DNA from: Alteriqipengyuania flavescens
GTDB taxonomy: Bacteria > Pseudomonadota > Alphaproteobacteria > Sphingomonadales > Sphingomonadaceae
Length of the DNA: 64,000 nt
Assembly: GCF_030406725.1 (NCBI RefSeq)
Contig: NZ_CP129107.1
Coordinates: forward strand, 1,654,501 to 1,718,500
Direction of reading: 5' to 3'
Shown: positions 7,933-15,409 of the stretch, one piece after another
How the letters are laid out: each line of letters starts with the position of its first letter
Numbering within the stretch: position 1 is the first letter of the stretch
Notes under the pieces: generated by a model
What the model was told of the DNA's origin: nothing
The model's input: the letters and a program-made list of their open reading frames with translations, nothing else
Database searches by the model: none
Program-made: the position numbers and the translations under genes

Positions 7933-9875
<1,943 letters not shown>

Positions 9876-11418: not shown

Positions 11419-11995
<577 letters not shown>

Positions 11996-13237: not shown

Positions 13238-13516
13238 GGTTTTGACCTTTCTCGTATTTTCAATCGGTGTGGCCACTCAGCACACAGCAGGTAGATAAGT
13301 TCCACGGTTCACTTATTGAAGCTGCGATTTGCGTCCCACCTCGCAAGGGGGAAGATAGACCGCCGGACCACGCTCGCCGCGCAGGCGGCGGCATCTCATT
13401 CCGAACTGGCCGCGGCCAAAAGCGGCGAATTACGCCGCGTTACCGCCAGGAACCGGTCCAGCGCCTGCAGGAAGTTCAACTTTCGGCTTTGCTGACCGGG
13501 GGAGGGCTGAACGGGG

Positions 13517-13777
13517 GTGTTCCTGTGCGCGCTGGCGCAGCACGGCACGGTCGCCGCGGCGGCGCGCTCTGTCGGGATGAGCCGGCAGGCGGCCTATCGT
13601 TTGCGCGCCCGGGCGCCGCAATTCGCGCTTCTGTGGGAAGAGGCGATGCGGCTGGGCCAGGCGGCGCGGCTGCGGGCGAGGGCGGCGCGGCGGCGCAAGC
13701 GCGTCCGCCCCGCTGCTCGACACGCGGATGCTGCCGGACAAGCGCCCGCTGTCGGAAACGGGGCCCTTCGCCAGTGA
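13517..13777 (+). pseudogene. HTH protein remnant
   Basis: FLCALAQHGTVAAAARSVGMSRQAAYRLRARA is a helix-turn-helix of a small protein family common in sphingomonads, followed by FALLWEEAMRLG. No credible start or N-terminus is in frame, and downstream the frame turns into an Arg-rich run while plausible coding (PLLDTRMLPDKRPLSETG) continues in another frame. I read it as a decaying gene. Between 13238 and 13516 I see nothing else that is coding. Confidence 0.55.
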
Positions 13778-13944
13778 CGGATCGGGGCAGGTGGGGGTTA
13801 CGCCTGGCCTCGCGCAAGGTGACGCGGCCCCGCGCGCAAGGTCACGGTTTTGACTTGCACGGTGCCGGATGTGCGCCGCGGGGTGACGCTTTCACGCGAA
13901 AGGTCACGCATTCGCGGCGCAGGGTTACGCTTCGCACGCTTTTG
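13773..13944. repeat. Direct repeat array with ~21-bp period
   Basis: The core GGTNACGC recurs at 13796, 13818, 13840, 13861 (as GGTGCCGG), 13882, 13902 and 13923, spaced 22, 22, 21, 21, 20 and 21 bases. A weaker unit (AGTGACGG) is at 13773. Between cores the sequence tends to CGCGC-AA. Seven or eight degenerate units lie on one DNA face (two helical turns apart). They lie between the HTH remnant and the end of the stress PNPOx gene. No function is assigned. Confidence 0.8.
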
Positions 13945-13976
13945 CGTCTGGAGGGTGTTCCACGTGCTCCACCGCG
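13930..13976. repeat. Dispersed ~47-bp repeat, copy A
   Basis: Core GGAGGGTGTTCCACGTGCTC at 13950, matching copy B at 15046-15092 in 24 of 27 core bases, with looser similarity upstream (GCTTCG..C). It directly follows the ~21-bp repeat array and precedes the end of the PNPOx gene. Confidence 0.65.
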
Positions 13977-13993
13977 CGCGGCGGGCTTGCGGG

Positions 13994-14440
13994 CTAGATG
14001 ACGAAGTCGCCTTCGTCCTCGCCGTCCCAGTATGCACAGCGGGTGGCGTGGACGTGCAGCATCACCAGGCCTTCGGTGTCGGTGCCGTCCTCGAACCAGC
14101 GCTCGAGGTCCTTCACCCAGTGCTTCTCGAACTCGGCCTTGTCGCGCACGATCTCTGCATCGCCTTCCAGCGCGATGAAAATGCCCGGCGCGCCGCTCTC
14201 CTTCGGGGCGCCCTGCAAGGACAGGCCGACCTTGGGGTTCTTCTCGATGTCCTTCGCCATGAGGCTGTCGGCCCAGGTGAAGTAGTAGCTGTCCCCATCG
14301 TAATCGACCTGGCGGTTGTTGCTCATCGGGCGCGCGCCGATCTGGCCGGCCCTGGTGTGGGTGTTCAGCATCACGAAGTCGATGTCCTTCATCGCTTCGG
14401 CAATATGGGCAAGGTGCTCTTTCGCGGTCTTGTCGACCAT
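13994..14440 (-). CDS. Pyridoxamine 5'-phosphate oxidase family general stress protein
   Basis: 148 residues of the split-barrel flavin-binding fold. It resembles the general stress protein 26 group: FVMLNTHTRAGQIGARPMSNN, YYFTWADSLMAKDIEKNP, GIFIALEGDAEIVRD. These proteins bind FMN or FAD and respond to stress. The ATG at 14440 follows GGAGAAGACGTT, a good ribosome site; the longer frame upstream runs through non-coding sequence. Confidence 0.85.
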   Translation of the reverse strand: MVDKTAKEHLAHIAEAMKDIDFVMLNTHTRAGQIGARPMSNNRQVDYDGDSYYFTWADSLMAKDIEKNPKVGLSLQGAPKESGAPGIFIALEGDAEIVRDKAEFEKHWVKDLERWFEDGTDTEGLVMLHVHATRCAYWDGEDEGDFVI

Positions 14441-14719: not shown

Positions 14720-14956
14720 ATGAACCAGAGCCAAGAATTCTACGCCGAACGTGCGGCAGAAGCTAAGGCAGAGGCGGGCAAGGCCACGCTGGACAATGTG
14801 CGCGACCGGGCGCTGCGGGCTCAGGCCACCTGGCAGATGCTGGCCGACCAGGCACATGCCGTGAAGCGCCGCCGCGAGCGGCTCGAAAGCGAAAAGGCCG
14901 CTGCGCGCGCTGCCGAAGTGCAGGTGCCTGCGGCAGGCGTTCCTTCCGCTGACTAG
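14720..14956 (+). CDS. Small helical protein, paralogue 1
   Basis: 78 residues, mainly charged helix: FYAERAAEAKAEAGKATLDN, VRDRALRAQATWQML and KRRRERLESEKAAA. It is clearly related to the protein at 15197-15409 (shared pattern FYxERAxEA...KAxLxNVRxRxLRAxxxW). No signal peptide or known domain. It may be a stress-induced small protein, judged from its neighbours only. Confidence 0.75.
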   Translation: MNQSQEFYAERAAEAKAEAGKATLDNVRDRALRAQATWQMLADQAHAVKRRRERLESEKAAARAAEVQVPAAGVPSAD

Positions 14957-15045: not shown

Positions 15046-15092
15046 CTTCGTGCATTCTTCTAGCCGGAGGGTGTTCCATCTGCTCCATCGCG
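15046..15092. repeat. Dispersed ~47-bp repeat, copy B
   Basis: Core GGAGGGTGTTCCATCTGCTC at 15066, partner of copy A at 13930-13976. It lies between the two paralogous small genes in a 240-base stretch that I otherwise cannot assign. Confidence 0.65.
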
Positions 15093-15196: not shown

Positions 15197-15409
15197 ATGA
15201 GCCAGACTTTCGAATTCTACAACGAACGCGCCAACGAAGCCGCTGCCGATGCGAAGAAGGCGAAGCTCGCCAATGTGCGTCGTCGTCTCCTGCGCGCGGA
15301 ACGTTCGTGGCGTGGCCTTGCTGCGCGGGCGAAGGCGGTCGCGGAAATGCGCACGAAGGTGCTGCGCGAGAAGGCTGCGGAGCGTGACGCCGAGGCCGCC
15401 AAGGCCTGA
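15197..15409 (+). CDS. Small helical protein, paralogue 2
   Basis: 70 residues: FEFYNERANEAAADAKKAKL, ANVRRRLLRAERSWRGLAAR, then a charged tail. Paralogue of 14720-14956. The ATG at 15197 follows AAGGAGAG at proper spacing, which settles the start. Function unknown. Confidence 0.78.
   Translation: MSQTFEFYNERANEAAADAKKAKLANVRRRLLRAERSWRGLAARAKAVAEMRTKVLREKAAERDAEAAKA

Follow-up and report, generated by a model that had tools for sequence, protein, structure and literature searches.

Phased direct-repeat arrays linked to small-terminase-like HTH genes in sphingomonad chromosomes

Background

In iteron arrays at plasmid origins, and in centromere arrays, direct repeats of approximately 20-22 bp lie close to the gene that encodes a DNA-binding protein. 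The repeats described here, from the chromosomes of sphingomonads, resemble them in both period and genetic setting. They differ in being dispersed in chromosomes, in being associated with a promoter-like motif and with a short terminal box, in having strongly degenerate spacers and in that no Rep or ParA/ParB gene was recognised nearby.

Further comparable arrangements are found in phages and in gene transfer agents (GTAs), which are domesticated viruses. At phage packaging sites, such as the pac regions of SPP1/SF6 and the cos site of PaP3, repeats lie beside a gene of the small terminase (TerS) family, the HTH domains of which are the presumed readers of the DNA (PMC4737164, PMC7672466). 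By contrast, the sphingomonad arrays are chromosomal, present in several copies per genome and composed of up to about eight phased units; they accompany a short protein without the long C-terminal part, and no adjacent large terminase (TerL) gene was recognised. Among GTAs, gp1 of the Rhodobacter capsulatus element (RcGTA) is the small terminase by function, and the GTA cluster of the genome studied here likewise opens with TerS followed by TerL. Whereas RcGTA gp1 has no detectable HTH, the array-linked protein keeps the HTH and is missing the C-terminal part; according to the same 2019 paper, no discrete GTA packaging start sites had been reported (PMC6854486). The terGTA repeats of the Caulobacter CcGTA are similar in lying downstream of a GTA-related promoter, yet they consist of three GC-rich repeats of 150 bp, located at a terminator that GafYZ bypasses, rather than of 21-bp phased sites (PMC11150451).

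A literature search with TTTCCTACA returned no publication on this bacterial group among the matches listed. Likewise, searches for dispersed Sphingomonadales repeats, Erythrobacter GTA or terminase genes, orphan terminase genes with repeats and the letters of the core and box, in a literature collection without bioRxiv preprints and many subscription papers, gave no description of the element among the matches listed. The array analysed here belongs to an apparently undescribed family of dispersed, precisely spaced DNA elements of sphingomonads.

Results

An array of eight phased units

The window, a 64,000-nucleotide stretch of the single 2,719,067-base contig of Alteriqipengyuania flavescens (genome G000), contains eight short units in one orientation at 13773-13930, as found by direct reading and pattern search (Table 1). 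Their start-to-start spacings are 23, 22, 22, 21, 21, 20 and 21 bp, the last six of these seven being the values given in the initial annotation; the direct repetition with a period of about 21 bp that it had noted was confirmed by reading, pattern search and a shuffle test. The pattern GGTNACG is matched by six of the eight units, the other two being degenerate, and GGTNACGC occurs exactly in units 2, 3, 6, 7 and 8 (13796, 13818, 13882, 13902 and 13923).

Chance was assessed through the longest run of any 7-mer with one inner wildcard recurring 19-24 bp apart, with one skip allowed. Such chains reach six copies at the array, a length attained by none of 300 dinucleotide shuffles of 13501-14300 (maximum four), while the other 78 of the 79 tiles of 800 bases in the window give a maximum of three; the array is therefore not attributable to chance. 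Tandem Repeats Finder did not report it. That all copies lie on one face of the helix, as originally suggested, holds roughly: the six intervals from 13796 span 127 bp, or 21.17 bp each, but over the whole array (150 bp, seven intervals) a helical repeat of 10.5 bp gives a drift of about 0.3 turn.

Table 1. Features of the array locus and its surroundings, in window coordinates
Feature	Position	Strand	Basis
Possible 3' remnant of DUF188/YqxD gene next to HTH remnant	13396..13548	-	9/20 residues identical, weak
HTH gene remnant, small-terminase-like DNA-binding domain	13517..13777	+	PHROG_4044 terminase small subunit, E 3e-8; alignment with relatives
Array unit 1, AGTGACGG, degenerate	13773..13780	+	Direct reading; the twin array (L040) likewise opens with AGTGACG, 23 bp ahead of unit 2
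Array unit 2, GGTTACGC	13796..13803	+	Pattern search
Array unit 3, GGTGACGC	13818..13825	+	Pattern search
Array unit 4, GGTCACGG	13840..13847	+	Direct reading
Array unit 5, GGTGCCGG, degenerate	13861..13868	+	Direct reading; in register with the intact unit 5 of L040
Array unit 6, GGTGACGC	13882..13889	+	Pattern search
Array unit 7, GGTCACGC	13902..13909	+	Pattern search
Array unit 8, GGTTACGC	13923..13930	+	Pattern search
Terminal box, tandem 9-bp motif GTGTTCCAcgTGctCCA; letters GTGTTCCACGTGCTCCA	13955..13971	+	Begins 32 bp from the start of the last core; same distance in L040
Second terminal box, no array (L137)	15071..15087	+	Pattern search

A twin array with identical spacing

A pattern search of the whole genome matched one other place, L040, near 1,524,500, which is flanked by reading frames that we take to be a PepSY-type gene on one side and rimO on the other. 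All seven of its spacings are identical to those of the window array. The cores of the two are 81% identical, a figure that is partly circular in that the core matrix had found the chains, and the 6-base spacer stretches are 48% identical, against 35% expected for unrelated spacers. As the chance agreement of two strings of seven spacings, drawn independently from the observed distribution, is only about 0.001, coincidence can be ruled out: either the two arrays descend from a common ancestor and have kept their geometry, or selection has acted on the geometry itself. Because spacings are retained while spacers change, the suggestion that the array is a decaying satellite is not favoured in general, although the window copy, with two degenerate units and a broken gene beside it, may be decaying.

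Arrays in related genomes

The consensus CGCAAGGTGACRCTTT is common to 37 collected arrays, of which 36 are distinct (L174 repeats L076), with a mean spacing of 21.2 bp, about two helical turns. With low-scoring units counted, spacings of 20, 21, 22, 23 and 24 bp occur 30, 109, 45, 10 and 3 times respectively, and they are partly specific to position when counted from the 3' end.

A strict pattern matched six of 149 genomes of the family. Three of these matches (G053, G059 and G133) proved on reading to be other repeats or coding sequence, leaving true arrays in the window genome, G079 and G093. In the latter two the array directly follows a small HTH gene downstream of thiC, as identified from the sequence, which is also the arrangement in the window. 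Comparison with related genomes had been named beforehand as the test that might overturn the initial annotation; with an array after an HTH gene downstream of thiC in two other genera, a twin of the same spacing elsewhere in the genome and further arrays in the family, the observation stands. In the thiC neighbourhood of the window, a fragment at 11434-11832 (+) repeats the C-terminal part of a complete gene read as ThiC (7983-9875, +), some 1.6 kb further on.

Profile searches found an HTH gene plus array in further genera. Model R1 matched 37 of the 149 family genomes at E 0.01, a tally that is not a count of arrays, as seven weak loci of the 12 viewed (L113, L114, L116, L117, L121, L122 and L123) had no element by eye. 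Two peptide patterns, applied to a collection with one genome per species, gave 16 named loci, 12 of them with an array, in Qipengyuania, Erythrobacter, Aurantiacibacter, Actirhodobacter and Novosphingobium and in records named as Sphingomonadaceae, Erythrobacteraceae or Alphaproteobacteria. Intact short HTH genes include those of Erythrobacter sp. NAP1 (L178), Qipengyuania citrea (L177) and Aurantiacibacter rhizosphaerae (L182). At E <= 1e-4, a sharper model, of the last three units plus the box (R2), had matches in 71 of the 397 family genomes, spread over 28 of 96 genera, many of these matches being the box alone; copy numbers per genome from this model are lower bounds, ten candidates having been scored in each.

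When 26 genomes were sorted (G300 being left out), 11 had arrays together with a short HTH gene above 65 bits, five had arrays and no short HTH gene above that score (G118, G353, G411, G199 and G279), and nine had no short HTH gene above 65 bits and, among the matches listed, only the box (G014, G369, G348, G408, G213, G254, G298, G286 and G242). The chain score in an other-strand control had a median of 10.7 and a maximum of 47.6, the latter exceeding two loci called arrays (L236, 43.0; L239, 45.3). L240 and L247, which lie near contig ends and were viewed off-centre, had no array in the stretch viewed. G094 has five arrays, and since the spacers are so alike within this genome (0.57-0.73) and in a pair from G162 (0.93), some of these copies may be duplicates.

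The HTH protein and small terminases

The window HTH gene is broken: there is no TTTCCTAC upstream, the N-terminal part is missing and the tail is in a different frame from that of its relatives. No other HTH gene was found in G000 at E 1e-12 with the short-HTH alignment. The weak DUF188 similarity on the opposite strand (Table 1) is to the C-terminal part of the protein preceding the HTH gene in G079.

PHROG_4044 was matched by all six short HTH proteins submitted (those of the window, L070, L071, L174, L177 and L182), as well as by L138 and by a long paralogue, L155. The latter matches 20 phage records, from Pseudomonas, Achromobacter and Rhodobacter phages, 12 of which are annotated as terminase small subunit; nothing in the phage collection matched the short protein of L070. 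An AlphaFold2 model of the HTH protein has three helices followed by a long fourth helix (pLDDT 77), and the top Foldseek matches to it were chains of the Sf6 TerS, with a probability of 0.99 but a best E of only 0.3. In the GTA cluster of G000, identified by PF09343 at 811,968, a TerS gene matching the same PHROG lies approximately 10 kb upstream, with TerL immediately after it. Since both match PHROG_4044 and the GTA copy heads its cluster before TerL, the array-linked gene is judged to be a paralogue of the GTA small terminase from which the C-terminal part is absent. No TerL was recognised next to the array-linked HTH gene when the reading frames surrounding it in the window, in G079 and in G093 were read. 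The GTA small terminase itself (L220 5442-6080; G000:C1:801441-802079) apparently has two HTH domains in tandem, seen as two PHROG_4044 stretches. The suggestion that the repeats are iterons of a replication origin is unsupported, given that they lie in a 2.72-Mb single-contig chromosome and that the HTH protein matches small terminases.

Arrays accompany the short form of the protein

The association of array and HTH gene proposed for the window was borne out by its recurrence at more than 20 other loci. Across 66 HTH genes, an array follows 31 of the 45 without the C-terminal signature of the long form and none of the 21 with it (Fisher p 3e-8, an optimistic value, given that the sequences are related and that the matrix was trained on some of these loci); all 31 array-linked proteins tabulated lack the signature. 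By a post hoc division on length, an array follows every one of 27 genes with at most 63 residues beyond the HTH and four of the 39 others (L080, L094, L187 and L280). In L094, L187 and L280 the HTH frame stays open across the array, which it translates into heptads of the QGDT or QADA type, and the array may be in coding use at these loci. The 14 genes with neither signature nor array all have at least 72 residues after the HTH, and may be long forms that the signature missed. Nine rows outside the training of the matrix (L272-L274 and L276-L281) all have arrays, the genomes concerned having been picked for array or box matches.

As arrays also occur without a detected short HTH gene, namely in the five genomes listed above, while that of the window adjoins a broken one, the partner of an array may be a longer paralogue, or arrays may outlive their partner.

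Anatomy of the element

The element begins with TTTCCTAC or TGTCCTAC, followed some 36 bases on by an ATG, sometimes an HTH gene and zero to about eight array units; at its 3' end the array is succeeded by a stretch resembling TTTTTGCCCCTGGAC, the tandem box and then, often, a gene start soon after. Motifs of the TTTCCTAC type are found upstream of 24 of 33 HTH loci, with the ATG 35-38 bases after the motif in 23 of the 24. In G000, TTTCCTAC with an ATG at 22-36 bases has 23 matches, some of which overlap or fall inside coding genes, against none in a reversed control. TTTCCTAC further lies 34 bases ahead of the ATG of a gene read as gloB (L164, G000:C1:2021322, -), and may therefore be a promoter component in wider use in the group.

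The box at 13955-13971, which the initial annotation did not include, belongs with the array to one element. It is GTGTTCCATGTGTTCCA in most copies of G000, where its pattern has 11 exact matches and six more with one mismatch. Two of the exact copies accompany the arrays and six have the upstream motif and box only (L133, L134, L139, L140, L141 and L143); of the others, L138 follows a long TerS-like gene, L142 follows a GTA-type holin gene and L137 is the second box of the window, which sits on the forward strand between two similar-looking small ORFs (14720-14956 and 15197-15409). The holin gene (PF11351, E 7e-28; G000:C1 about 2,679,600-2,680,160) is far from the GTA cluster, with the motif upstream and the box downstream. 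Similarly, a phage-lysozyme gene of G093 (PF00959; L221 8347-8943, -) has TTTCCTAC upstream and the box inside its reading frame, before the part that encodes the lysozyme domain. Just after the box in L133, L134, L143 and other G000 copies, inspection by eye showed what looks like an inverted repeat, GGNNAGGA ... TCCTACACCGATCCAACA. The expectation that a gene follows the box is borne out in part: among 29 loci chosen by hand, a same-strand open frame of at least 60 codons starts within 170 bp in 26, seven of these frames being judged spurious (L133, L138, L190, L191, L260, L267 and L270).

Box and spacers differ in how they vary between genomes. Across 16 array rows from six genomes, the 18 columns of the box are 90% identical within genomes (16 pairs) and 71% between them (104 pairs), a difference that comes mainly from G094 and G118, the boxes of G000, G093, G101 and G111 being nearly the same; the spacer columns of the same rows are 52% identical within genomes and 47% between. 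Further box variants exist in G079, G140, G162 and others. That the box is more alike within genomes than between them, and the spacers hardly so, suggests a trans-acting reader. Readings of the box as a LexA, parS or DnaA site were dropped as its 9-bp period and lineage variants do not fit.

Chromosomal positions

With the element masked and the flanks compared, copies were found before the same genes in genomes of different genera: lysK in G000, G093, G348, G369 and G408; ruvA in G094 and G408; a gene read as pyrC in G140 and G079 (Pfam amidohydrolase for G140); a saccharopine-dehydrogenase-type gene in G093 and G101; and, within one genus, folP in G213 and G093. At the lysK, ruvA, folP and pyrC sites, array units are present in one genome and the box alone in another. 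Where read, the surroundings of arrays are mostly housekeeping genes; the gene after L258, initially taken for DegP, is an M20 peptidase by Pfam. From these flanks, the positions of the element appear to be fixed rather than jumping, with many common to different genera.

Discussion

Of the readings offered at the outset, an array of binding sites for a protein fits best, and we infer such binding from the sequence. The explanation we prefer, and hold with middling confidence, is that the array is regulatory DNA, a platform of about eight partly conserved CGCAAGGTGACRCTTT sites two turns apart for a TerS-related HTH domain. With sites at this distance, the HTH domains would be aligned along one side of the helix. 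In the array-linked proteins, which are without the C-terminal part, the alignment of domains would be taken over by the DNA; our guess is that the missing part is the one that forms TerS oligomers, and the short proteins would have arisen from long ones. As the array lies downstream of the promoter-like TTTCCTAC and just before the tandem box, its occupancy is proposed to control transcription, the target being the HTH gene or, where the copy is an orphan, the next gene along. With the HTH gene broken in G000, the two arrays of that genome would be either relics or bound by a longer paralogue.

A wider version of this explanation, which we advance only tentatively, is that a GTA small terminase has been domesticated as a chromosomal DNA-organising regulator: the protein ring would have been shed in favour of DNA arrays that space HTH domains by two turns, with lineage-specific arrays and box co-evolving at fixed loci before housekeeping genes. 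In a bolder form still, the arrays may be dispersed packaging sites, marking DNA for entry into GTA or phage capsids.

Alternatively, the motif, HTH gene, array and box may have spread together in the past as a mobile element, now decaying or taken over as a 5' leader. Copies are dispersed, some without the HTH gene and others without the array; that of the window, with its two degenerate units, adjoins a broken gene; sites with array units in one genus have none in another (lysK, folP, ruvA and pyrC); and the stretch after the box in several G000 copies looks, by eye, like an inverted repeat. We nevertheless regard such an origin as unlikely, for many positions are common to different genera, geometry is kept despite spacer drift, no transposase gene was seen and no target duplication was noticed by eye.

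A role as pac-like sites of packaging initiation, where arrays recruit the terminase of a GTA or helper phage, nearby DNA is packaged preferentially and TerS plus array form a selfish unit riding on the GTA, draws on the membership of the HTH family in the small terminases, a paralogue of which heads the GTA cluster, and on the TTTCCTAC motif and box carried by the GTA-type holin gene and the G093 phage-lysozyme gene. Direct repeats in the SPP1 pac region, at the start of terS, provide a precedent, but the same paper also has the SF6 DNA-binding domain binding pac DNA without sequence specificity (PMC4737164), and RcGTA TerS is described as binding DNA weakly and with no clear sequence preference (PMC6854486). 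The short HTH proteins are without the C-terminal part found in long ones, and arrays, where their surroundings were read, lie mostly among housekeeping genes, not in a phage or GTA genome. PF09343 is present in 102 of 149 family genomes and has no match in the array-bearing G093, G094, G101 and G153, which makes a packaging role less likely, with the qualification that it is one GTA tail family, so that its absence is no proof that every GTA or prophage is absent; it was used in place of GTA_TIM (PF13547), which had no match above its cut-off in the 149 genomes. Altogether we consider packaging sites improbable.

It is more doubtful again that the element acts as RNA, the transcribed array and box forming a folded or protein-binding leader that controls translation of the next gene. 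The location of both downstream of a promoter-like motif, and of the box just before the next gene's start at several loci, would suit such a leader; RNA, on the other hand, would not require units to be two DNA turns apart. Rfam gave no matches to E 5 in 11 loci and a single match for the window stretch, which scored 13 bits where the cut-off is 50. Judged by eye, the arm of TGGAC type that precedes the box is mostly kept while the letters of the box change between lineages, so that no compensating stem is apparent. Candidate stems between array core and box, and between TGGAC arm and box, had been picked out by eye and were dropped, as changes in the box from one lineage to another are not mirrored in the partner. 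Finally, that the 21-bp units encode, or once encoded, a tail of xxxQGDT heptads on the HTH protein is highly improbable, for despite in-frame read-through in L094, L187 and L280, all spacings are divisible by three in only three of 37 arrays, the majority of the HTH frames displayed end within the array, and orphan arrays have no gene.

Should the preferred explanation of the array as a platform for a TerS-related HTH domain be correct, the pairing of a short paralogue of a GTA terminase with precisely spaced chromosomal arrays would represent a new re-use of a packaging protein. It raises the question of whether a bacterial chromosome carries sites that are read by terminase-type HTH domains, and the element would explain why motifs are dispersed between the genes of Erythrobacter-like bacteria.
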